Assembly: GCF_001427785.1 (NCBI RefSeq)
Contig: NZ_LMHM01000012.1
Span: forward strand, 87,208-135,818
Length of the DNA: 48,611 nt
Reading direction: 5' to 3'
Origin: Lysobacter sp. Root690
GTDB taxonomy: Bacteria > Pseudomonadota > Gammaproteobacteria > Xanthomonadales > Xanthomonadaceae
The notes beneath the pieces are model-generated. The model was not told the origin of the DNA and searched no databases. It saw only the letters and a list, made by a program, of their open reading frames with translations. Positions 2,649 to 26,053 of the stretch are shown here, in pieces; the stretch's first letter is position 1, and each line of letters starts with the position of its first letter. The position numbers were made by a program, and so were the translations under genes.

Positions 2649-2795
2649 GTTCCCCCCTTTGGAAAAGGGGGGCAGGGGGGATTCGCTTTGGCTTTGGCTT
2701 TGGCTTTGGCCCTAGCCGCTTTCATCACTTGAAAAGATAAAGCGCAGAGCAAAAGCGAATCCCCCTGCCCCCCTTTTCCAAAGGGGGGAAAAACA
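2649..2795. repeat. pair of inverted CCCCCC-TTT hairpin repeats
   Basis: Two copies of the dispersed element face each other: one at about 2649-2691 (CCCCCCTTTGG, AAAAGGGGGG, then a GGGGGGATTCGCTTT tail) and its reverse complement at about 2748-2795. Each copy forms its own C/G-rich hairpin, and the two can also pair with each other. GGCTTT hexamers follow the first copy (2688-2710). The element lies between the 3' ends of the lacI-type gene and eda, so it could end transcription from both sides. The rest of 2474-2887 shows no gene. Confidence 0.85.
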
Positions 2796-2887
2796 ACAGC
2801 AGGGGCAACAGCCGCGGCGCTTACGCAATTACGCAGTCGCTCGTCACGTAGTTGCTCACTCAGTCGCTCACTTAGTCACTCAGTCGC

Positions 2888-3535
2888 TCAACCACGCAAC
2901 ATCACCGCCGCGCGCGCCAGCGCCTCGATCTGCGCCCAATCCCCAGCCTTCACCGCCGCCGCGGGCGCCACCCACGAGCCGCCGACACAAGGCACATTCT
3001 TCAACGCCAGATACTCATGCGCGTTGTTCGCGCCGATCCCTCCGGTCGCGCAGAAGCGCAGCTCCGGCAACGGGCCGCCCAAGGCCTTGAGCGCGGTCGC
3101 GCCGCCGATCGATTCGGCCGGAAAGAATTTCAGCTGGGTGTAGCCGTGCTCGAGTAAGGCCATCGCTTCCGACGCGGTCGCCGCACCCGGCAGCCACGGC
3201 AGATCGATCTCGCGCGCCGCGGCGATCAAGCCCGGCGAACTGCCCGGCGACACCGCGAAGGTCGCGCCGGCCTTCAAGGCATCGACGAAATCCGATGGCC
3301 GCCGCACGCTGCCGACCCCGACCGCCGCGCCCTCGACTTCGGCCGCGATCGCGCGCACCGCGTCCAGCGCGACCGGCGTGCGCAAGGTCACTTCGATGGC
3401 CGGCAGACCGCCGGCGACCAGCGCGCGCGCCAGCGGCACCGCGTCCTTGAGATCGTCGATCACCAGCACCGGCACCACCGGCGCAAGCGCCAATACCGCG
3501 GCGACGCGCGCTTGCAGATCCTGCATCGAACTCAT
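2888..3535 (-). CDS. eda: KDPG/KHG aldolase
   Basis: A 215-residue 2-dehydro-3-deoxy-6-phosphogluconate aldolase, the last step of the Entner-Doudoroff pathway. It splits KDPG into pyruvate and glyceraldehyde 3-phosphate. Family landmarks are clear: Glu48 in PAIEVTLRT and the Schiff-base lysine at about 136 in TQLKFFPAE. The phosphate-binding glycine-rich turns are VSPGSSPG and CATGGIG. The first glycine loop reads GVGSVRRP, where E. coli has GAGTV. I chose the ATG at 3535 because the enzyme fold begins just after it; the longer in-frame extension is Pro/Asn-rich and reads like intergenic DNA. The partner genes edd, pgl and zwf lie upstream on the same strand, separated by a HAD phosphatase gene and repeats. 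Confidence 0.95.
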
Positions 3536-3671
3536 TGCTTGGCTCCGGTTGGGGTTGGGGTTGGGTTTGGGTGGGGCGGTGGTGCTTTGGTTTGTGGGAG
3601 GCGATGAATGATTCCGCGTGACATTCAGTCGCGCATACGACTTATGTCCAGATCCTCGCGGATCTCTCACA

Positions 3672-3784
3672 TCGTCATTCCCGCGAAGGCGGGCTCCGCC
3701 TTACTTCGGCGTAGCCGAATATCCAGTGACTTCAAACGTTCTCGCACGAAAGGCTCTGGATTCCCGCCTTCGCGGGAATGACGA
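3672..3784. repeat. 113-bp MITE-like element, copy A
   Basis: The element has inverted ends of about 22 bp (TCGTCATTCCCGCGAAGGCG and its reverse complement). Its middle contains GACTTCAAACGTTCTCGCAC. A second copy of exactly 113 bp lies at 4651-4763 in the same direction, and the start of a third is cut by the window end at 48589. The size, terminal inverted repeats and lack of coding capacity fit a non-autonomous mobile element. Confidence 0.8.
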
Positions 3785-3881
3785 TCTGGAGAGATGGCGC
3801 TAAAGCCTTTGCATCCTCAGCTCAACCGAAATCGGACAGAGCCGCCTTCGCAGAAACGAAAAATAAAAAATTTCACATCAT

Positions 3882-4562
3882 TCAAGGCCGCGCAGCCACT
3901 TCATCAATATGCTTGAGCAGATCCGCCGGATCTTCGTAAACCCGGAACGCACCCGCGCGCTCAAGCTCCTCCTGTCCATAACCGCCCGACAACAGCCCGA
4001 CCCCAAGCGCCCGCGCGCGACGCGCGGCCAGCAGATCCCAGATGCTGTCGCCGACCACCACCGAATGCTCGATGTCGGCGCCGAGTTTGTCGGCGGCGGC
4101 GAGGAACAGGTCCGGATCGGGCTTGGCGTACTTGACCATGTCGCGGGTGATCACCACGCGCTGCTCCGGATCGACACCGAGCGCGATCAGGTTGTGACGC
4201 GCGGTTTCCATGCGGCCGCTGGTCGCGATCGCCCAGGGAATGTCGTTGGCGGTCAGATACGCGAGCAGTTCGACCGCGCCCGGCAACGGGCGGATCTGGG
4301 TCGCCTGGCGGCCGTAGGCTTCGGCGTGCAGGCGATGCAGGCGCTCGATCCGCTCCGGGGTGATGTCGATACCCGTTTCGCGAAGCAGGATGTTGGTGAA
4401 CAAACCGCCGCTCATGCCGATCTTGCGGTGGATGCGCCACACCGACAGCGGGATGCCGTCGGCGTCGAGCGCCTGCTTCCAGGCGAGCACGTGCTGATAG
4501 ACGCTGTCGACCAGGGTGCCGTCGAGATCGAACAGGAAGGTGGTGCGGGCGGGGGCGGGCAT
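3882..4562 (-). CDS. HAD-superfamily phosphatase, phosphoglycolate phosphatase/beta-PGM-like
   Basis: A 226-residue HAD hydrolase with a helical cap of the beta-phosphoglucomutase/phosphoglycolate-phosphatase type. Motif I is FLFDLDGTLVDS (residues 9-20), with the nucleophile and acid/base aspartates in DLDGT. Motif II is IATSGR, the motif III lysine lies in KYAKPDPDLF, and motif IV is VVVGDSIWD. It should dephosphorylate a small phosphorylated metabolite in the cytosol, perhaps a sugar phosphate given its place between edd and eda; the substrate is not readable. The gene is bracketed by two 113-bp repeats. Its start codon lies only about 12 bp from a run of six GGGATTC heptamers, so its upstream region looks repeat-derived. 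No strong ribosome site is visible. Confidence 0.85.
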   Translation of the reverse strand: MPAPARTTFLFDLDGTLVDSVYQHVLAWKQALDADGIPLSVWRIHRKIGMSGGLFTNILLRETGIDITPERIERLHRLHAEAYGRQATQIRPLPGAVELLAYLTANDIPWAIATSGRMETARHNLIALGVDPEQRVVITRDMVKYAKPDPDLFLAAADKLGADIEHSVVVGDSIWDLLAARRARALGVGLLSGGYGQEELERAGAFRVYEDPADLLKHIDEVAARP

Positions 4563-4574
4563 GGGAGGCGTCCG

Positions 4575-4620
4575 GGGATTCGGGATTCGGGATTCGGGAT
4601 TCGGGATTCGGGATTCGGGA
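4575..4620. repeat. GGGATTC heptamer tandem repeat (6.6 units)
   Basis: Six exact GGGATTC units and a partial seventh lie immediately upstream of the HAD gene start codon, reading as GAATCCC on that gene's strand. Related GGGATTCGGGA sequences occur at 30060-30094 and around mnmG (37548-37684). A heptamer tract can change length by slippage, which would alter the HAD gene leader but not its reading frame. Confidence 0.9.
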
Positions 4621-4650
4621 AAAGGCTACGGGTTACGACGACTATTTGAT

Positions 4651-4763
4651 TCGTCATTCCCGCGAAGGCGGGAATCCAGCGACTTCAAACGTTCTCGCAC
4701 GAAAGGCACTGGATGTTCGGCTCCGCCGAAGTAAAGCGGAGCCCGCGTTCGCGGGAATGACGA
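4651..4763. repeat. 113-bp MITE-like element, copy B
   Basis: Second copy of the element at 3672-3784, the same length and orientation, with the same inverted ends. The middle section is shared (GACTTCAAACGTTCTCGCAC), while the flanks of the middle differ and look rearranged. With copy A it brackets the HAD gene. Confidence 0.8.
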
Positions 4764-4868
4764 CTTGAGAGATTCGCGGGCATACACGGCAGCGACATCG
4801 GCCAACTCTCCATCACCGAACCAAACCGAATTGAGTCGAGCCAAACCGACCGAACTAATCCAACCCAA

Positions 4869-6689
4869 TCAAAGCGTCACCGACCCAAACACCCCCGCCC
4901 CGCGATCCGCCGGCGCGGCGTAATCGCGGAACGCGGCGAACAATTCGCGGCCCATGCCGACGTGATGCCCGGACAGATCGGCCGTCGCGTTTTCGCGCGC
5001 ATCCCAGTCGGCGGGTTCGACCACGTTCAAGGTCCCTTCGATCGCATCGAGCCGCAGCACGTCGCCGTCGCGCAACTTCGCCAACGGTCCGCCCGCCATC
5101 GCTTCGGGGGTGATGTGCATCGCCGCCGGCACCTGACCCGACGCGCCGGACATGCGGCCGTCGGTCACCAGCGCGACGCGATGGCCGCGCTTCTGCAGCA
5201 CGGTCAGAGTCGGCGTGAGCTGATGCAGTTCGGGCATGCCGTTCGCGCGCGGGCCCTGGAAACGCACGACCACGATCACGTCGCGATCGAGTTCGCCGCG
5301 TTCGAACGCCTGCTTCACGTCCTGCTGTTCGACGAACACCCGGCACGGCGCTTCGATCACCCAACGATCCTCCGGCACCGCCGAGACCTTGATCGCGGCG
5401 GTGCCCAGATTGCCGCTGAGCACGCGCAAACCGCCGTCCGCGCGGAACGGTTCGCTGACCGGCCGCAGCACCGCGGTGTCGCAACTGGTTGGCGTGCTCG
5501 GCACGTATTCGACCTGACCGTCCGCGCCGAGTCGCGCTTCGACCCGATAGCGCGCCAGGCCATGTCCGGCCACGGTCTCGACATCGCCGTGCAGCAGACC
5601 GTGATCGAGCAACTCGCCGATCAGATAAGCCAGACCACCGGCGGCGTGGAAATGATTCACGTCGGCACTGCCGTTCGGATACACCCGCGCCAGCAGCGGA
5701 ATCGCCGAGGACAGCGCGTCGAAATCCTCCAGCCGCAGATCGATGCCGGCCGCGGCGGCCATCGCGATCAGGTGCAGCAGATGATTGGTCGAACCGCCGG
5801 TCGCGTGCAGGCCGATCACACCGTTGACGATCGCCTTCTCGTCGACGATGCGACCGATCGGACGGTAGTCGTCGCCGAGCGCGGTGATCTGCGCGGCGCG
5901 TTGCGCGGCCAGCGCGGTCAGCGCATCGCGCAGCGGCGTGTTGGGATGGACGAAGCTGGAACCGGGCAGGTGCAGGCCCATCAGCTCCATCAGCATCTGA
6001 TTGGAATTGGCGGTGCCGTAGAAGGTGCAGGTGCCCGGGCCGTGGTAGCTGCGCGCCTCGGCTTCGAGCAATTCGTCGCGGGTCGCCTCACCGGTCGCGT
6101 AACGCTGGCGCACCCGCGATTTTTCGTCGTTCGGCAGGCCCGAGGTCATCGGCCCGGCCGGCACGAAGATGCCCGGCAGATGGCCGAAATGCAGCGCGCC
6201 GATCAGCAGGCCCGGCACGATCTTGTCGCACACGCCCAGGTACAGGCCGGCGTCGAACATGTCGTGCGACAACGCGATCGCGGTCGACATCGCGATCACG
6301 TCGCGCGAGAACAGCGACAGCTCCATGCCTTCGCGGCCCTGGGTCACGCCGTCGCACATCGCCGGCACGCCGCCGGCGACCTGCGCGGTCGCGCCGCAAT
6401 CGCGCGCGGCGGCCTTGAGCAGATCGGGATAGCGCTCCAGCGGCTGATGCGCCGAGAGCATGTCGTTGAACGAGGTGACGATGCCGAGGTTGGGCGCGTA
6501 ACCGCTGCGCAACGCGGCCTTGTCGCCGGTCGAACAGGCCGCGAAACCGTGGGCGAGATTGCCGCAGGACAGGCGTCGCCGATGCGGGCCGCCGCTACCG
6601 GCCGCATCGATGCGGGCGAGGTAGGCGGTGCGGCGCGCGCGGCTGCGTTCCTGGATACGGTGCGTGACTTGCGCGACAACTCGATGCAT
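4869..6689 (-). CDS. edd: 6-phosphogluconate dehydratase
   Basis: A 606-residue Edd/IlvD-family Fe-S dehydratase that turns 6-phosphogluconate into KDPG in the Entner-Doudoroff pathway. Recognisable blocks in order are [11 protein letters not shown] near the N-terminus, [22 protein letters not shown] and [11 protein letters not shown] (cysteines expected to bind the cluster), [28 protein letters not shown] and [16 protein letters not shown] near the C-terminus. I prefer the ATG at 6689, which gives an N-terminus like that of E. coli Edd; an in-frame GTG at 6701 would add four residues. Neither start has a strong ribosome site. It lies downstream of zwf-pgl on the same strand, with about 300 bp of repeats in between, so it may have its own promoter. 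Confidence 0.96.
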
Positions 6690-18215: not shown

Positions 18216-21200
18216 ATGACCAGCACCGCAGAACTCAGCTCGCCCTCGTCGGCGAATACCTCCCTGACCAACAGTGTCCTCGACCCGGATTACGGGCTGG
18301 AGCACAAGTACACCCGTCAGGAAGGCCGCATCTACCTGTCCGGCGTGCAGGCGCTGGTGCGCCTGCCGCTGATGCAGCGCCTGCGCGATCAGGCCGCGGG
18401 CCTGAACACGGCCGGCTTCATCTCCGGCTACCGCGGTTCGCCGCTGGGCGGATTCGACCTGGAGCTGTGGCGCGCGCGCAAGCACCTGGAAGCGGCCGGG
18501 GTGAAATTCACCCCCGGCCTCAACGAGGACCTGGGCGCGACCATGGTCTGGGGCACCCAGCAGACCAATCTGTTCCCCGGCGCCAAGGTCGAAGGCGTGT
18601 ACGGCATGTGGTACGGCAAGGGCCCGGGCGTGGACCGCACCGGCGACGTGCTCAAGCACGCCAACGCCGCCGGCACCAGCAAGTACGGCGGTGTGCTGGC
18701 GCTGGCCGCCGACGATCACGCTTGCCGCTCCTCGACCTTGCCGCACGGCTCCGAGGGCGAGTTCACCAGCGCGATGATGCCGATCCTCAACCCGGCCGGC
18801 GTCCAGGACATCCTCGACATGGGCCTGATCGGCTGGGCCATGTCGCGTTACACCGGCCGCTGGGTCGGCTTCAAGACCATCGCCGAAACGGTTGAATCGT
18901 CCGCGTCCGTGGACGTCAATCCGCTCGCGCTCAACATCATTACCCCCGACGATTTCGTCCTGCCGCCGGGCGGCCTGAGCATCCGCTGGCCCGATCCGCC
19001 GATGGATCAGGAGATGCGCCTGCACCAGTACGCGGTCAAGGCCGCGCAGGCGTTCGCGCGCGCCAACAAGATCGACCGCATCGTCATCGATTCGCCGAAC
19101 GCGCGGCTGGGCATCATCACCACCGGCAAGAGCTACCTCGACGTGCTGCAGGCGCTCGAATACCTCGGCCTGGATCAGCGCGCGTGCTCGGACCTGGGCA
19201 TCCGCGTGTACAAGGTCGGCATGACCTGGCCGCTGGAACCGGTCGGCCTGCGCGCGTTCGCGCGCGGCCTGGACGACATTCTGGTGGTCGAGGAAAAGCA
19301 CGCCTTCATCGAAAGCCAGATGAAGGAGTCGATGTACAACTGGGACGGCGAGCGGCGTCCGTCGATCGTCGGCAAGTACGACGAAAGCGGCGAGTGGATT
19401 TTGCCGTCGACCGGCGAACTGACCCCGGCGCGCATCGCCGGCGTGATCGCGCGCCGCATCCAGCGCTTCCACGACAGCGAACACATGCGCGAAGTGCTGC
19501 GCTGGATGGAAGAGAAGGAAAGCGAACTCGCCTTGCCGCGCGCCTCGTTCCCGCGCGTGCCGCATTACTGCTCGGGCTGCCCGCACAACACTTCGACCGT
19601 GGTGCCGGAAGGCTCGCGCGCGCTCGGCGGCATCGGTTGCCATTACATGGTGACGTGGATGGATCGCGACACCAACACCTTCACCCACATGGGCGGTGAA
19701 GGCGTGACCTGGTCGGGGCAGGCGGCGTTCACCGAAACCCAGCACGTGTTCCAGAATCTCGGCGACGGCACCTATTTCCACAGCGGTTCGCTGGCGATCC
19801 GCCAGTCGGTCGCGACCGGCGTCAACATCACCTACAAGATCCTCTACAACGACGCGGTCGCGATGACCGGCGGTCAGCCGGTCGACGGAACCTTGTCGGT
19901 GCCGCAGATCGCGCATCAGGTGCGTTCGGAAGGCGTGCACACGATCGTGTTGCTGTCGGACGATATCGGCAAGTGGCACAAGCGCGAAATCTTCCCGAGC
20001 GACATGGAGTTCTACGATCGCTCCGAGCTCGACGCGGTGCAAAAGCGCCTGCGCGAAGTGAAGGGCACCAGCGTGCTGATCTTCGATCAGACCTGCGCGA
20101 CCGAGAAGCGCCGCCGCCGCAAGCGCGGCAAGATGGTCGATCCGCAGAAGCGGGTCATGGTCAACACGCTGGTGTGCGAAGGCTGCGGCGACTGCGGCAA
20201 GAAATCGTTCTGCGTGTCGGTGCTGCCTAAGGAAACCGAGTTCGGCCGCAAGCGCGAGATCGATCAGTCCAACTGCAATAAAGACTATTCCTGCGTCAAT
20301 GGTTTTTGCCCGAGCTTCGTCACCGTCGAAGGCGGCGGCGTGCGCAAGAAGAAGGGTTCGGCCAAGGATCGCCTCGCCGACCTGCCGATGCCGTCGCTGC
20401 CGTCGCTCGACACGCCGTGGAATATCCTGATCACCGGCGTCGGCGGCACCGGCGTGGTCACCATCGGCGCGTTGCTCGGCATGGCGGGGCACCTGGAAGG
20501 CAAGGGCGCCAGCGTGCTCGACCAGACCGGTCTGGCGCAGAAGGGCGGCGCGGTCACCACCCACATCCGCATCGCCAAGACCCCGGCCGACATCCACGCG
20601 GTGCGCATCGCCGCGGGCGAAGCCGACCTCGTGCTCGGCTGCGACATGGTCGTGGTCAACGATTACTGGGCGCTGTCGAAGGTGCGCGCCGGCCGCAGCC
20701 AGGTCGTGCTCAACAGCTACGAAGCGATGCCGGGCACGTTCACCACCCGTCCGGACATGCAGTTCCCGGCGACCGACATCGTCGCCGCGATCAAGCAGGC
20801 GCTCGGCGGACAGGATCCGCTGATCGTCGACGCGACCCAGCTCGCCACCGCGCTGCTCGGCGATGCGATCGCGACCAATCTGTTCATCCTGGGCTACGCC
20901 TGGCAGCGCGCGCTGGTGCCGATCACCTTCGATGCGCTGATGCGCGCGGTCGAGCTCAACGGCGCGGCGATCGAAATGAACAAGACCGCGTTCGCCTGGG
21001 GCCGCCTGGCCGCGATCGATCCGCAGTCGGTGGCCGAAGCCGCCGGCGTGACCCGCAAGGTGCCGACCGCGGCCGAAGCCACTCCGCACGACCTGCCGCA
21101 TTTGGCGCCGGGCGAATGGGAAGGCAACGAATGGGGCGCCACCTCGGCGCCGCGCGCGACCCGCAACGAAGACGAGCTGCGCCACGTGCCGGCCAAGGCC

Positions 21201-21905
21201 GACGGCGACAACGTCGCGTTCCTGCCGCTCGACGACCTGCGCCTGTCGCGTTCGCTCGATGAACTGATCGCGCGCCGCGTCGCGTTCCTGACCGAGTATC
21301 AGGACGCCGCCTACGCCAAGCGCTATTCGGACTTCGTCGCCAAGGTGCGCAGCGCCGAGCAGGCCAAGGCGCCGGGTTCGACCGATCTGGCCGAGGCGGT
21401 CGCGCGCTACTCGTTCAAGCTGATGGCGTACAAGGACGAGTACGAAGTCGCGCGCCTGTACACCAGCGGCGATTTCCAGCGCAAGCTGGAGCAGCAGTTC
21501 GAAGGCGATTACAAGCTCAAGTTCCACCTCGCCCCGCCGCTGCTGGCCAAGAAGGACGCGCAGGGCCGCCTGATCAAGCAGGAATTCGGCCCGTGGGTGT
21601 TCACCGCGTTCAAGTGGATGGCGAAACTGCGCAAGCTGCGCGGCGGCACCTTCGACATCTTCGGCTACACCGAGGAACGCAAGATGGAGCGCCAGCTGAT
21701 CGCCGATTACGAGCAGACCATCGCCGATCTGCTGCCGACCCTGGACGGCGGCAACGTCGACCTGGCCGCCGAGATCGCCGGCATCCCCGAGCACATCCGC
21801 GGCTACGGCCACGTCAAGGAAGATCACCTGCACAAGGCCAAGGCGCGCGAAGCGGAGTTGCTCAAGGAATACCGCAATCCGCTGCGGATCGTGCAGGCGG
21901 CTTGA
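18216..21905 (+). CDS. indolepyruvate:ferredoxin oxidoreductase-type fused 2-oxoacid oxidoreductase
   Basis: A 1229-residue single-chain enzyme joining the alpha and gamma functions of 2-oxoacid:ferredoxin oxidoreductases. The N-terminal 450 residues form the pyrimidine-binding domain (SGYRGSPLGGFDLEL). The TPP domain follows (GCHYMVTWMDR, HMGGEGVTW, NLGDGTYFHSG and NITYKILYND, about 470-560). Near 650-700 lies a ferredoxin-like cysteine cluster (CEGCGDCGKKSFC and NCNKDYSCVNGFCP). The gamma domain starts near 737 (ITGVGGTGVVTIGALLGMA). It oxidatively decarboxylates aryl or branched 2-oxoacids from amino-acid breakdown to acyl-CoA, passing electrons to ferredoxin. This long fused form is known in aerobic proteobacteria. 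It is transcribed alone and ends in a strong terminator. Confidence 0.94.
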   Translation: MTSTAELSSPSSANTSLTNSVLDPDYGLEHKYTRQEGRIYLSGVQALVRLPLMQRLRDQAAGLNTAGFISGYRGSPLGGFDLELWRARKHLEAAGVKFTPGLNEDLGATMVWGTQQTNLFPGAKVEGVYGMWYGKGPGVDRTGDVLKHANAAGTSKYGGVLALAADDHACRSSTLPHGSEGEFTSAMMPILNPAGVQDILDMGLIGWAMSRYTGRWVGFKTIAETVESSASVDVNPLALNIITPDDFVLPPGGLSIRWPDPPMDQEMRLHQYAVKAAQAFARANKIDRIVIDSPNARLGIITTGKSYLDVLQALEYLGLDQRACSDLGIRVYKVGMTWPLEPVGLRAFARGLDDILVVEEKHAFIESQMKESMYNWDGERRPSIVGKYDESGEWILPSTGELTPARIAGVIARRIQRFHDSEHMREVLRWMEEKESELALPRASFPRVPHYCSGCPHNTSTVVPEGSRALGGIGCHYMVTWMDRDTNTFTHMGGEGVTWSGQAAFTETQHVFQNLGDGTYFHSGSLAIRQSVATGVNITYKILYNDAVAMTGGQPVDGTLSVPQIAHQVRSEGVHTIVLLSDDIGKWHKREIFPSDMEFYDRSELDAVQKRLREVKGTSVLIFDQTCATEKRRRRKRGKMVDPQKRVMVNTLVCEGCGDCGKKSFCVSVLPKETEFGRKREIDQSNCNKDYSCVNGFCPSFVTVEGGGVRKKKGSAKDRLADLPMPSLPSLDTPWNILITGVGGTGVVTIGALLGMAGHLEGKGASVLDQTGLAQKGGAVTTHIRIAKTPADIHAVRIAAGEADLVLGCDMVVVNDYWALSKVRAGRSQVVLNSYEAMPGTFTTRPDMQFPATDIVAAIKQALGGQDPLIVDATQLATALLGDAIATNLFILGYAWQRALVPITFDALMRAVELNGAAIEMNKTAFAWGRLAAIDPQSVAEAAGVTRKVPTAAEATPHDLPHLAPGEWEGNEWGATSAPRATRNEDELRHVPAKADGDNVAFLPLDDLRLSRSLDELIARRVAFLTEYQDAAYAKRYSDFVAKVRSAEQAKAPGSTDLAEAVARYSFKLMAYKDEYEVARLYTSGDFQRKLEQQFEGDYKLKFHLAPPLLAKKDAQGRLIKQEFGPWVFTAFKWMAKLRKLRGGTFDIFGYTEERKMERQLIADYEQTIADLLPTLDGGNVDLAAEIAGIPEHIRGYGHVKEDHLHKAKAREAELLKEYRNPLRIVQAA

Positions 21906-21955: not shown

Positions 21956-21965
21956 GCGAGAGGGC

Positions 21966-22113
21966 AAGAGCAAATCCCCCCTGCCCCCCTTTTTCAAAGG
22001 GGGGAACAGCACGGGACGATCTGGCCGAAATCGAAGCGATGTGACCCACACGATCTGAAACATCCCTGCAGGAGATTCCCCCCTTTGAAAAAGGGGGGCA
22101 GGGGGGATTTGCT
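21966..22113. repeat. CCCCCC-TTT hairpin repeat pair facing outward
   Basis: A reverse copy at about 21966-22010 and a forward copy at about 22074-22113 lie between the oxidoreductase terminator and the small-gene 3' end. Unlike the pairs at 2649 and 6745, here the GATTTGCTTTT tails point away from each other. No gene is seen in 21956-22338. Confidence 0.82.
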
Positions 22114-22338
22114 TTTGAAGCGCCAAGTGAGATCGCTGTCGAAACGCGCAAGCCAGGCCGCGCCGATCAAACAGCCCCGAACGCGGACAAATCCGAGCGG
22201 AGTCAGACCGATATCGGACAGATTCACGCCAACCCGATCGAATCGCGTCGCAGTGCGCTAAGCTGCGGATCAAAAAACCTCGAAAACCCCATCGGCCCCT
22301 GCGCCTGGCGCAAGCCGATCCCCGCGAGGAGGTTCCGC

Positions 22339-22587
22339 TCAGATGGCCAGGCGGCGGATGAGCTCGCTCGCCGCGTCGCGGACCTTGGACGAATCGGTGG
22401 GCATGCGCGAATCGGTAAGGGACACCTTGACCAGTTCCATCCGCGCCGTTTCCAGCGCGGCATCGCTGTAATGCGCGATCGCGTGGCGCCGCCAGTCCTG
22501 TTGCGTCGCCGAACCCTCGGCCAACAAATGCAGAAACTCCGTGAAGCCCTCGTGGGCTTGCTGCGTTTCCTTCGGCGCCGCCGTCAT
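22339..22587 (-). CDS. small protein of the sigma/anti-sigma operon, function unknown
   Basis: An 82-residue, probably alpha-helical, soluble protein. GAGGAAA lies about 7 nt before the ATG, a strong ribosome site. It contains helical stretches such as FTEFLHLLAEGSATQQDWRR and SSKVRDAASELIRRLAI, no cysteines and no membrane segment. It begins 32 bp after the anti-sigma gene on the same strand and so is probably the third gene of the ECF operon. I recognise no family. A role as accessory regulator or adaptor is only a guess from position. Confidence 0.65.
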   Translation of the reverse strand: MTAAPKETQQAHEGFTEFLHLLAEGSATQQDWRRHAIAHYSDAALETARMELVKVSLTDSRMPTDSSKVRDAASELIRRLAI

Positions 22588-22619: not shown

Positions 22620-23387
22620 TCAGATCGCGCCTGCCAGCGCGCGCCTGACGACGTTCGCCGAATCACCACGGCTCACCATCGCATAGTTGTAGTCGCCGCG
22701 CGACCAGTATTGCGCGAACAGATCGCCGTCGCGGCGGTCGCCGCGCGGCAGCAGGTGGCGCTGCGGGCCGGGCGGCCGGATGTAGAAGCTGATCGCGTTG
22801 CCGGACGGGTCGGCATACACCACCAGCGCCGCCGCGCCCTGTTCAGTCGACAGCATCCGCACTCCCGACGGACGGAAGCCCGCCGCGCTCAGATCGGGCA
22901 GCCGCATGGGCGCGCGGAAATTGGCGTCGAGCCAGGTCTGCAGGTCGCCCGTACCGTCCGTGCGATCAAGGCGCAGATCGTGACGCACCGCGAACAAGCG
23001 ATGGGCGGCGATCGCATCGGCCATCGGCAGCGGTCGCGCTTGCGCCTGCAACGACGGCGCGTCGACCGACTGCGACCACACCCGCGCCTGCCAACCGCCG
23101 AGGCCGCCCACGCCGATGCTCAGCACGATCGCCGCGGCCATCGCGTAACGCGCGTTGCGCTTGCGGGTGAGGCCGCGGCGCAGGCGCGCGGGGTCGAGTT
23201 CGGGCTGCGCGCTCAGGGCGTCGCCGGCCAGCGCGGCGCGCAGTTGCTGCGCATCGCGTTGCCATGCGCGCAATTCCTCGGCCGATTCGGGATGACGCGC
23301 GAGCCAGGCCTCGACTTCGGCGCGACGCGCGGCATCGAGACGTCCGTCGACGTAAGCATGCAGATCGTGTTCGCTGGGGATGTTCAT
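22620..23387 (-). CDS. anti-sigma factor, membrane-anchored
   Basis: A 255-residue anti-sigma factor. The N-terminal 70 residues are the cytoplasmic sigma-binding part (EHDLHAYVDGRLDAARRAEV, then helices). A membrane segment lies at about 80-102 (YAMAAAIVLSIGVGGLGGW). A periplasmic domain of about 150 residues ends in GDYNYAMVSRGDSANVVRRAL. The position of the usual HxxxCxxC zinc motif reads HAYVDGRLD, so it is a zinc-free type and unlikely to sense thiol oxidation directly. It would hold the adjacent ECF sigma factor inactive until a periplasmic or membrane signal releases it. It follows the sigma gene by 64 bp. Confidence 0.88.
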   Translation of the reverse strand: MNIPSEHDLHAYVDGRLDAARRAEVEAWLARHPESAEELRAWQRDAQQLRAALAGDALSAQPELDPARLRRGLTRKRNARYAMAAAIVLSIGVGGLGGWQARVWSQSVDAPSLQAQARPLPMADAIAAHRLFAVRHDLRLDRTDGTGDLQTWLDANFRAPMRLPDLSAAGFRPSGVRMLSTEQGAAALVVYADPSGNAISFYIRPPGPQRHLLPRGDRRDGDLFAQYWSRGDYNYAMVSRGDSANVVRRALAGAI

Positions 23388-23451: not shown

Positions 23452-23967
23452 TCATTTCAACAACCTCAACGCCGGCCCCGGCGTCTCGCCTTCGCTGAGC
23501 CGGCGCAAGGCCTGACGCGCGCGCGACAGCCGCGACATCACCGTTCCTATCGGCACCTCGAGAATGTCGGCGACGTCCTGATAGCTCAGCCCTTCCACCG
23601 AGACCCACAGCAGCAGGCTGCGCTGCTCGACCGGCAGGCGTTGCATCGCCTCCAACGCCGAGCGCGCGACGAACTCGCGTTCGGCCGAGGGTTGATGCTC
23701 GTTGCCGGCCAGACCCAATCGCGACAACAGCCCGGCGTAGCGCTGCGAACGCCGCTGCGCATCGAGGAATTGGCGGTAGACGATCGCGAACAGCCACGGC
23801 CGCAGCGCCTGATCGTCGTGGCGGCTGTGCCAGCGGGTGATCGCGCGCTCCAGCGCGGCCTGGACCAGATCGTCGGCCGCGTGCGGATCGCGCGTGAGCC
23901 AACGCGCGAAACGCCGCAACGACGGCAGTTGTTCGCGCAGGGCGGTGTCGAGCTCGTGGGCGGGCAT
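23452..23967 (-). CDS. ECF-type RNA polymerase sigma factor
   Basis: A 171-residue ECF sigma factor with only regions 2 and 4. Region 2 is at about residues 12-75 (LPSLRRFARWLTRDPHAADD, then LVQAALERAI, with WLFAIVYRQFLDAQRR as 2.4). Region 4 is at about 108-160 (ALEAMQRLPVEQRSLLLWVS, with the helix-turn-helix VEGLSYQDVADILEVPIGTV then MSRLSRAR). It should direct transcription of its own operon and of the divergent peroxidase/b561 pair: the shared intergenic region has the same bipartite motif facing each way. No good ribosome site precedes the ATG. Confidence 0.93.
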   Translation of the reverse strand: MPAHELDTALREQLPSLRRFARWLTRDPHAADDLVQAALERAITRWHSRHDDQALRPWLFAIVYRQFLDAQRRSQRYAGLLSRLGLAGNEHQPSAEREFVARSALEAMQRLPVEQRSLLLWVSVEGLSYQDVADILEVPIGTVMSRLSRARQALRRLSEGETPGPALRLLK

Positions 23968-24008: not shown

Positions 24009-24033
24009 GACGCCGCAGGCCGCAGTTTATTCC
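24009..24033 (-). promoter_or_regulatory. ECF promoter-like motif facing the sigma gene
   Basis: On the minus strand the -35-like GGAATAAAC (24033-24025) is followed after exactly 12 bp by the -10-like CGTC (24012-24009). A start near 24002 would give a leader of about 35 nt for the sigma gene. The same motif and spacing occur on the plus strand at 24092-24116, which is the main argument that both are used. Confidence 0.65.
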
Positions 24034-24091
24034 GTCGGCCCGCTGATTCCGTTGAGGATGATTGCGTCGATCGCTTTATTCCATCCAGCCG

Positions 24092-24116
24092 GGAATAAAC
24101 CCCGCGGCCGGGCGTC
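24092..24116 (+). promoter_or_regulatory. ECF promoter-like motif facing the catalase-like gene
   Basis: GGAATAAAC (24092-24100), a 12-bp spacer, then CGTC (24113-24116), about 34 bp before the peroxidase ATG. It is identical in both boxes and in spacing to the minus-strand motif in the same intergenic region. An ECF-dependent promoter controlled by the adjacent sigma factor is inferred. Confidence 0.65.
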
Positions 24117-24149
24117 GTACCGGTATCGCGCCCCCACCGAGACCCCGCC

Positions 24150-25259
24150 ATGTCGCCGCCCGAACCCGACTCAGCCAACGCCTCAACCGTTCCTTCGTCC
24201 ACGTCCTCGCGGCCGCCCGCGCCGCTCGCCCGCTATGCCCTGATCGCGTTCGTGGTCGGCGCCGCGGCCGCCGCGTTCGCCTATGTCGCCGGCCCGCTCG
24301 ACCCGCAGCGGCTCACGCCCAAGCGCATCGTCGACGATCTGCAGGCCAACGGCGGCCTGCATCCGGGTTATCGCCGCAACCACGCCAAGGGCGTATGCGT
24401 GATCGGTTATTTCGACAGCAGCGGCGAGGCCGCGGCGTATTCAAAGGCCGGCGTGTTCGCGCGCGGACGCACGCCGGTGGTCGGGCGCTTCGCCCTGCCC
24501 GGCGGCAACCCCTACGCGCCCGACGGCGGCGTGCCGATCCGCAGCTTCGCCCTGCGCTTCACCCAGGCCGACGGCCAGCAGTGGCGGACCGGCATGAACA
24601 GCATGCCGGTGTTTCCGGTCGCCACGCCGCAGGCGTTCTTCGCGCAATTGCAGGCCGGCGCGCCCGATCCCGCCACCGGCAAACCCGATCCGGCCAGGCA
24701 GAAGGCGTTCTTCGCCGCGCATCCGGAAACCGCGGCGTTTCGCGCCTGGGCGAAAGACCGCAAGCCGTCGGCGAGCTACGCGACCGAACGTTATTACGGC
24801 CTCAACGCGTTCTATTTCGTCGACGCCGCCGGCACGCGCCAAGCGGTGCGCTGGCGGGTGGAACCCGACAACGGCGCGGCGGCGTTGCCGCTGACGGCGC
24901 AGGATCAGAACGTGCTCGCCGACGAACTGGATCGACGCCTGGCGCAGGGACCGCTGCAGTGGCGGCTGTGGGTGACCCTGGCCGCGCCGGGCGATCCGAC
25001 CGCCGACGCCACCCGGGTTTGGCCGCCCGACCGGCGCGAAATCGACGCCGGCCGCATCGTGCTCGCCCGCGCGCAAGCGCAGGACGCGGGCGAATGCCGC
25101 GACATCAACTACGACCCGCTGATCCTGCCCGACGGCATCGCCGGCTCCGACGATCCGCTGCTGGCCGCGCGCTCGTCCGCGTACGCCGAATCCTACCGCC
25201 GCCGCACCGCCGAAGAAGCGCAAGCCGGCGGCCATCCGCCGAAGGAGCTGCCGCGATGA
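24150..25259 (+). CDS. catalase-family heme peroxidase (SrpA-like), membrane-anchored
   Basis: A 369-residue short catalase-family protein. An N-terminal membrane anchor lies at about 28-47 (YALIAFVVGAAAAAFAYVAG). The heme domain carries the distal histidine His78 in RRNHAKGVCVIGYF, Asn150 in NSMPVF, and the proximal R-x3-Y in RSSAYAESYRR (Arg341, Tyr345). Such SrpA-like proteins are peroxidases with weak catalase activity, and many are exported. The active site should face the periplasm. The stop overlaps the start of cytochrome b561 (ATGA), which suggests that the b-type cytochrome supplies electrons. It is divergent from the ECF sigma gene and probably under its control. Confidence 0.9.
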   Translation: MSPPEPDSANASTVPSSTSSRPPAPLARYALIAFVVGAAAAAFAYVAGPLDPQRLTPKRIVDDLQANGGLHPGYRRNHAKGVCVIGYFDSSGEAAAYSKAGVFARGRTPVVGRFALPGGNPYAPDGGVPIRSFALRFTQADGQQWRTGMNSMPVFPVATPQAFFAQLQAGAPDPATGKPDPARQKAFFAAHPETAAFRAWAKDRKPSASYATERYYGLNAFYFVDAAGTRQAVRWRVEPDNGAAALPLTAQDQNVLADELDRRLAQGPLQWRLWVTLAAPGDPTADATRVWPPDRREIDAGRIVLARAQAQDAGECRDINYDPLILPDGIAGSDDPLLAARSSAYAESYRRRTAEEAQAGGHPPKELPR

Positions 25260-25870
25260 ACCGCAACGAGGACATGTTCTGGTGGCCGGCGCGCGTGCTT
25301 CACTGGCTGATGGCGTTGATGATCGTGAGCATGCTGTTCATCGGCGCCGGCATGGTCGCGACGGTGTCGGACAAGCACACCTGGCTGCTCGCCTTGCACA
25401 AGCCGCTGGGGATTTCGATTCTGGCGTTGGCGGTGCTGCGTCTGGCGCTGCGATTGCTGCGCAAACCACCGCCGTTGCCGATCGATCTGCCGCCGCTGCA
25501 ACGCTTCGCCGCGCGCGCCTCGCATTGGCTGTTGTACTCGCTGATGTTCGCGCTGCCGCTGATCGGCTGGGCGATGCTGTCGGCCGGAGGTTATCCAGTC
25601 AGCCTCGGCGCCGGCATCGTGCTGCCGCCGATCGCGCCGTTCGACCCGAGCGTGTTCGCATTGTTGCGTTGGCTGCATCGCACGTTGGCTTACCTGTTGT
25701 TCGCGACGGTGCTGCTGCATCTGGCGGCGGCGTTGTATCACGGCCTGATTCGGCGCGATGGGGTGTTGCGCAGCATGGTGTGGCGGGGTGGGATGCGCGA
25801 TGACGGCGCGTCGTCGCCGCCATCGGGCGATGTGGTTGCATCGTCTGTCGAGGATGCGTCCGCGCGTTGA
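25256..25870 (+). CDS. cytochrome b561
   Basis: A 204-residue integral membrane b-type cytochrome with four membrane helices. Candidate heme histidines are His16 (RVLHWLMA), one in LLALHKPLG, one in RASHWLLY, and those near the last helix (VLLHLAAALYHGL). It would carry electrons from the quinone pool to a periplasmic partner, most likely the catalase-family peroxidase encoded by the gene it overlaps. The C-terminal 30 residues are polar and cytoplasmic. It reads in a different frame from the peroxidase with an ATGA junction, so the two are translationally coupled. Confidence 0.93.
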   Translation: MNRNEDMFWWPARVLHWLMALMIVSMLFIGAGMVATVSDKHTWLLALHKPLGISILALAVLRLALRLLRKPPPLPIDLPPLQRFAARASHWLLYSLMFALPLIGWAMLSAGGYPVSLGAGIVLPPIAPFDPSVFALLRWLHRTLAYLLFATVLLHLAAALYHGLIRRDGVLRSMVWRGGMRDDGASSPPSGDVVASSVEDASAR

Positions 25871-25904
25871 GATCGCAATTGCGTTTGGGTTGCGCCGGTT
25901 GGCG

Positions 25905-25997
25905 CGGTTCGCGGTCGCGGCTCGCGCCGCTCCTACAGTGTGGATCGTAGGCCACGTATCTACCTGTAGGAGCGGCGCGAGCCGCGACCGCGAAACG
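25905..25997. repeat. inverted pair of GTAGGAGCGGCGC repeats
   Basis: A reverse copy at about 25905-25938 (GGTCGCGGCTCGCGCCGCTC) and a forward copy at about 25963-25997 form a large stem-loop of about 30 bp per arm just after the cytochrome b561 stop. It may protect or end the mRNA of the convergent genes. Confidence 0.82.
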
Positions 25998-26053
25998 CAC
26001 AAACAACGATCGCTACGGAAATCGCGGATACGCGAGGCGCACGACCGCTGCGA

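Follow-up and report, generated by a model that had tools for sequence, protein, structure and literature searches.

A predicted divergent ECF26-type promoter pair between a sigma factor operon and a catalase-like/cytochrome b561 operon in Lysobacter

Described ECF26 systems and the Lysobacter locus

Promoters of the extracytoplasmic function (ECF) sigma factor group ECF26 have a published consensus of GGAAT at -35 and CGTC at -10, which is supported by reporter experiments and 5'RACE (PMC6527743). The S. meliloti factors RpoE1, RpoE3, RpoE4 and RpoE6 have been placed in this group and their target promoters printed (PMC6180224). According to passages of three papers, the genes for RpoE4, RpoE1 and Starkeya novella SigE each share one operon with an anti-sigma gene, these factors have few targets, and the operons of RpoE1 and RpoE4 are switched on by their own sigma factors (PMC6527743, PMC3511301, PMC6180224). 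The main targets described for RpoE4 are sulfite-oxidation genes with sulfite as the signal, and SMc01022, a cytochrome b-like protein, responds to RpoE1 and RpoE3 (PMC6180224).

Further counterparts have been described in Burkholderia and Pseudomonas. In B. cenocepacia, the sigma gene BCAL3478 and the divergent BCAL3477, a putative catalase gene, showed highly similar expression after H2O2 treatment (PMC2830190). In the final H2O2 column, which by the order deduced from the text is that for 60 min, BCAL3478 was up 16.6-fold and BCAL3477 23.1-fold, while both were unchanged under NaOCl (PMC2830190). BCAL3478, also named Bcen-EcfB, has been labelled PrtI-like (PMC2194791). The relevant passages of PMC2830190 and PMC2194791 give no promoter motif for the pair. 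In P. fluorescens WH6, the PrtI/PrtR system pairs an ECF sigma gene with a gene for a transmembrane regulator directly downstream of it (PMC2997014). PSPTO_1043 and ecf11 of P. syringae were set aside as counterparts, since in the printed descriptions their promoter motif or their ChrR-type partner differs. A literature search from which subscription journals were mostly absent, and which therefore weighs little, found no publication joining an ECF sigma factor, a catalase-like protein and a cytochrome b561; for ECF sigma factors and catalase in Lysobacter, the one paper listed concerns type 6 secretion.

The following features were found in the window, by which we mean the whole analysed stretch of 48,611 nucleotides:

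22339..22587, minus strand: open reading frame of 82 aa behind the anti-sigma gene, matching no family
22620..23387, minus strand: probable membrane anti-sigma factor, 255 aa (topology and position after the sigma gene; weak NCBIfam matches)
23452..23967, minus strand: ECF sigma factor, 171 aa, sigma regions 2 and 4 (Pfam Sigma70_r2 and Sigma70_r4_2, and NCBIfam matches)
24009..24033, minus strand: predicted sigma-facing ECF26-type promoter, GGAATAAACTGCGGCCTGCGGCGTC; -35 GGAATAAAC at 24033-24025, -10 CGTC at 24012-24009
24074..24082, minus strand: half-box GGAATAAAG, inside the 58-base gap
24092..24116, plus strand: predicted catalase-facing ECF26-type promoter, GGAATAAACCCCGCGGCCGGGCGTC; -35 GGAATAAAC at 24092-24100, -10 CGTC at 24113-24116
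24150..25259, plus strand: catalase-family protein, 369 aa, with an N-terminal membrane anchor (PF00199, E 1.4e-28; hydrophobic segment near residue 30)
25256..25870, plus strand: cytochrome b561-family membrane protein, 204 aa (PF01292, E 4.6e-30)

The 171-aa protein comprises sigma regions 2 and 4 only, as is typical of ECF factors, and the ECF26 consensus (-35 GGAATA, -10 (C)GT(C)) is present upstream of its own operon. For comparison with the group, rpoE6 was located in the pSymA record via two promoter strings printed in PMC6180224, and RpoE6, as one reference member, was searched one way against the window's genome. Among 14 matches, the sigma factor of this locus was the best (90.6 bits, 41-42% identity), followed by one at 72.1 bits. 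Because of this best match, the promoter and the topology of its partner, the sigma factor likely belongs to ECF26.

The partner is a protein of 255 aa that contains a single hydrophobic segment and lacks cysteine. In its predicted structure (mean pLDDT 74.1), the N-terminal part is helical and the C-terminal part a beta domain, with a poorly predicted stretch between them. The protein had no Pfam match, its NCBIfam anti-sigma matches were weak and below the cut-off, and a fold search with the model gave no match at E <= 0.001; the best hits, TM1622 (1vr8) and RseB/MucB chains, had a query TM of about 0.25 and E above 0.001. A match to this protein adjoins the sigma gene in all 29 loci of the family set and in the best 80 of 500 named relatives (both sets are defined below). 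It is a probable anti-sigma factor, in which an N-terminal helical domain would be followed by a single membrane helix and a periplasmic beta domain, a topology that fits the partner of an ECF26 factor. The 82-aa frame behind its gene had a tblastn match in three of the 29 family loci (L004, L006 and L007), whose fetched stretches extend no further than about 1.5 kb beyond the sigma gene, and is possibly an operon tail of some Lysobacter only.

On the other side, the earlier note had named a peroxidase/b561 pair. The b561 assignment stands (PF01292), while the supposed peroxidase is a catalase-family protein (PF00199) of putative enzymatic activity. Its profile matched 3e4w, a chain of 320 residues, best among solved structures. 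Residues H78, N150 and Y345 are invariant in 15 aligned proteins, and we take H78 and N150 to be the distal His and Asn and Y345 the proximal Tyr of the catalase haem site. The start codon of the b561 gene overlaps the catalase-like stop codon (ATGA). Alignments A2, A3 and A4 held 15, 15 and 18 sequences, respectively, picked by hand.

Compared with S. meliloti RpoE4 and RpoE1, the locus has the same -35 GGAAT and -10 CGTC boxes at the same spacing and a sigma and anti-sigma operon with predicted autoregulation, and its b561 gene recalls SMc01022. In contrast to the sulfite-oxidation genes of RpoE4, the neighbouring target here would be a catalase-like/b561 operon. A further difference is that the sigE promoter of Starkeya lacks the consensus. 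BCAL3478 and BCAL3477 resemble the locus in their divergent arrangement of sigma and catalase genes, and 21 Burkholderia loci among the best 80 of 500 relatives carry the same module with both motifs. BCAL3477 and BCAL3478 are presumed orthologues of the window genes; strain J2315 lies outside the fetched loci. The Pseudomonas loci of the module are plausible orthologues of PrtI/PrtR, which is a lead only, and the printed ties of PrtI/PrtR to protease and germination-arrest-factor production differ from the present locus (PMC2997014).

The motif pair and its conservation

Both copies of GGAATAAAC-N12-CGTC that the earlier note had reported on the two strands of the intergenic region were confirmed letter for letter. 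The motif itself is already known, as it equals the published ECF26 consensus (PMC6527743, PMC6180224). Within the window, GGAATAAA-N12-14-CGTC matched twice against 0.02 expected, and across the whole genome (6,296,053 bases) the same two matches were the only ones, versus one for the reversed-pattern control. The half-box GGAATAAAC with at most one mismatch occurred six times in the window against 2.8 expected, and seven of 100 shuffles reached six. By itself, the half-box is therefore near chance level and not unusual, which would suit a chance repetition in a GC-rich genome. Yet the full motif occurred twice in none of 100 shuffles, has no other exact site in the genome and is conserved across families, so that we regard chance as an extremely improbable source of the pair.

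The third, ninth-base mismatch copy that had been described between the two also exists (GGAATAAAG) and, as claimed, has no CGTC at the right spacing. When the region was aligned with seven relatives, conservation was concentrated at the promoter boxes. At the position of GGAATAAAG, the closest relative (L004) has GGATTA and L008 a different sequence, and in the remaining five the -35 boxes lie 8-9 bases apart, which leaves no room for a counterpart. A functional third copy was rejected since GGAATAAAG is unconserved in these seven relatives; most likely it is chance or leftover sequence outside the promoter element. A scan for the sigma-70 consensus between the sigma and catalase-like genes found nothing.

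To place the transcript starts, we turned to the printed promoters of S. meliloti ECF26 targets (PMC6180224). Five of the seven tested fit GGAATN-N15/16-[CT]GT[CT], those of SMc01022 and SMc02156 being the exceptions, and in the five that fit, 9-10 bases are left from the -10 box to the printed end. The sorT sequence in Table 1 of PMC6180224 ends at the start mapped by both methods, which is the tenth base after CGTC. Starts are thus expected about 9-10 bases after CGTC, rather than the 6-8 bp proposed earlier. By this analogy, the sigma-facing transcript likely starts at about 24000-23999 and the catalase-facing one at about 24125-24126.

Conservation was analysed in two sets of relatives. 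Among 198 genomes drawn from the family, 45 were positive for the sigma factor, the window's own genome included, and its distribution was patchy, with at least three same-genus genomes lacking it at the search threshold. For the family set, we took the 29 top-ranking of 48 non-self places and set aside the 19 weaker ones, at 40-51% identity. In all 29 loci, the sigma, anti-sigma and catalase-like genes occur together with a pair of GGAAT-type motifs facing away from each other, and b561 is found in 28, the fetched stretch of the remaining one (L020) ending before its position. The named-genome set comprises the best 80 of 500 confirmed relatives (12 Xanthomonadales, 21 Burkholderia and 47 Pseudomonas), the closest being Lysobacter. 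After removal of four duplicates (L051, L052, L053 and L092, from the same contigs as L006, L005, L007 and L010) from the 109 relatives, 105 loci remained. Most of the 76 named ones belong to Pseudomonas (47) or Burkholderia (21), so that the loci are not independent.

A copy of GGAATA-N15/16-CGTC faced the sigma gene in every related locus (105 of 105). An outward copy was found in 94 of the 95 loci with an adjacent catalase-like gene and in none of the 10 without; the sole exception, L023, lacks the strict motif and has an outward variant ending in CGTT. The conservation check beside orthologous sigma genes that the earlier note had proposed was thus passed in both directions. The spacer measured 15 bases in 100 loci toward sigma and 89 away from it, and 16 bases in five and five, while each other length from 9 to 23 gave 0-3 matches. 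In the same loci, we counted 199 sites per 100,800 strand-bases in the upstream windows versus 8 per 1,338,422 elsewhere. The layout kept in related bacteria is real but mostly ordinary.

Conservation also bears on the question of which sigma factor uses the sites. Both could be real ECF promoters that are mainly used by another ECF factor of the genome, with the neighbouring operon as one of several regulated genes. S. meliloti group 26 factors do cross-activate each other's promoters (PMC6180224; PMC10880074), and the 14 RpoE6 matches, the second at 72.1 bits, would provide candidates. However, the motif adjoins this sigma gene in every one of the 105 loci, has no exact second place in the window's genome, and accompanies each of the two genes, sigma and catalase-like, where they lie apart. 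Use mainly by another factor therefore appears unlikely, and we favour the neighbouring ECF26-type factor.

Copy number and gene arrangement

Loci in which the catalase-like gene is displaced allowed a closer look at this association. In 10 genomes, no catalase-like gene adjoins the sigma gene. Seven of them carry a 60-62% identical one on the contig of the sigma gene; in the other three, none was found at E up to 1e-20. The displaced gene has the motif 35-91 bases upstream and in the same direction in 7/7 cases, and in the same genomes the sigma gene retains its own copy, 3.1-3.9 kb away. In L179 (Pseudomonas antarctica, 2729-6427), about 3.9 kb with three open reading frames separate the copies; by eye, the frames resemble an enoyl-CoA hydratase, a membrane oxidoreductase and an AMP-binding enzyme.

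Plasmid relatives were sampled as five among 60 matches listed (511 records matched), plus pSymA by accession. On a Pantoea agglomerans plasmid, the catalase, b561, sigma and anti-sigma genes follow each other on one strand, with a single motif before the catalase gene. A Gluconobacter plasmid (record marked unverified) has divergent genes and two motifs with spacer 16. Cupriavidus and Roseomonas plasmids carry a sigma-facing motif, which in Roseomonas ends in TGTC, and no catalase-like gene within the fetched stretch. Thus, the displaced loci together with the Pantoea and Gluconobacter layouts indicate that the copy number tracks the number of transcription units among closer relatives. This rule fades with distance. 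L195, the S. meliloti plasmid pMl1 with a 43% identical sigma factor, has no GGAAT-N14-18-[CT]GT[CT] in its 6.5 kb, so the promoter specificity of that factor may differ and the rule does not reach every relative. The L195 sigma gene adjoins a cytochrome P450 gene.

These arrangements weigh on another reading, in which the pair is no promoter at all and serves as the operator of a repressor or activator binding an inverted pair. The copies do form an inverted pair, with just 3-9 bases between them in a dozen relatives, which gives them a palindrome-like appearance. Across the 105 loci, however, the gap between the two -35 boxes ranges from 3 to 249 bases (median 28), which argues for two promoters and against a single fixed palindrome. 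Pantoea has a single copy, the copies of the displaced loci are kilobases apart, the distance from the -35 to the -10 box is constant and the same as in printed ECF26 promoters, and the sigma-70 scan left no promoter between the genes for an operator to regulate. We consider an operator very improbable.

Taken together, we are confident that a single ECF26-type sigma factor uses the region as a divergent pair of promoters, driving the sigma/anti-sigma and the catalase-like/b561 operons. The earlier proposal that the ECF factor recognizes the motif, autoregulates and drives the catalase-like/b561 pair is thereby supported, as far as sequence can tell, by conservation and by a copy number that follows the gene arrangement. 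Recognition by an ECF26 sigma factor, autoregulation and co-induction by peroxide would then parallel what has been printed for relatives. Such dependence of motif copy number on gene arrangement offers a useful natural test for promoter prediction.

Proposed function and further candidate targets

On an envelope or oxidative signal, the membrane-bound anti-sigma partner would let go of the sigma factor; as the candidate contains no cysteine, this release should not proceed through an anti-sigma cysteine. RNA polymerase with the sigma factor would then initiate at both GGAATA-N15-CGTC copies. One copy would provide sigma and anti-sigma factor, that is, positive autoregulation with a built-in shut-off, and the other the membrane-anchored catalase-family protein and cytochrome b561. 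The b561 protein may hand electrons from the quinone pool to the catalase-family protein, and peroxides or similar oxidants would be removed, presumably in the periplasm.

More broadly, and tentatively, ECF26 may include a widespread branch with nearly a single target, a periplasmic quinol-linked catalase-family peroxidase (catalase-like protein plus b561), common to Xanthomonadales, Burkholderia, Pseudomonas, Pantoea and Gluconobacter. Some Pseudomonas regulons would have gained a secreted alpha/beta hydrolase and kept it after loss of the catalase operon, and PrtI/PrtR may belong to the branch. If true, PrtI/PrtR of P. fluorescens would gain its missing direct target. At the level of promoters, the present locus yields a prediction for the sigma/catalase/b561 module, which occurs in many bacteria of soil and plants. 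It could also explain why BCAL3478 and BCAL3477 are co-expressed, a finding that PMC2830190 noted without explaining, and it would widen the ECF26 theme from sulfite to the handling of oxidants.

To find further targets, we relaxed the motif to GGAATA-N14-17-CGTC, which gave 28 matches in the whole genome versus 15 for the reversed control. Among the 26 other sites, 25 lie inside an open reading frame of at least 100 codons, an argument weakened by the fact that long chance frames are common in such GC-rich DNA, and none combines GGAATAA with a 15-base spacer. The one site outside such frames (L185, spacer 17) has frames starting 18 and 197 bases downstream and is a possible target. A larger regulon in the window's genome was rejected, given that no convincing third site was found.

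In four Pseudomonas genomes, the motif stands about 70 bases upstream of a gene for a secreted alpha/beta hydrolase (PF12697):

L176:1067-1912, L177:257-1119, L206 and L207: motif-bearing hydrolase genes (PF12697; the query and three at 77-80% identity)

Two of these genomes (G198 and G206) were found via the motif and two (G211 and G212) independently, so the independent score is 2/2. A properly placed motif was absent from all 11 remaining hydrolase matches of the 20 searched genomes (0/11), one of which, in Rhodanobacter, is 80% identical. As G198 and G206 have no catalase-like gene, the hydrolase may be a retained target. On the basis of these few genomes, we suggest the secreted hydrolase as a possible further target in some Pseudomonas.

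In Frateuria sp. STR12 (L178:3138-3114), which has the sigma gene and in which no catalase-like gene was found, the motif lies just before a secreted frame that by eye resembles a beta-propeller and could be an alternative target. In L175, it precedes a small secreted frame; each of these two cases was seen once.

Other features of the window were recorded alongside. Just after the b561 gene, at 25898-26004, lies a 41-nt inverted repeat with 93% complementarity and 25 nt between the arms, the core of which occurs seven times in the window with at most three mismatches; it is perhaps a dispersed REP-like element or a terminator. A dispersed palindromic repeat with the core CCCCCTTTGAAAAAGGGGG gave 25 strand-matches (at most three mismatches) in the window versus 0.02 expected, with sites at 21965-22117, as a 42-nt inverted pair, and near 2653, 2769, 6749, 12424, 12550, 44929 and 45048. 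The stretch 18216-21905 encodes a 1229-aa protein with pyruvate ferredoxin oxidoreductase-type and DUF6537 domains, presumably an indolepyruvate ferredoxin oxidoreductase.
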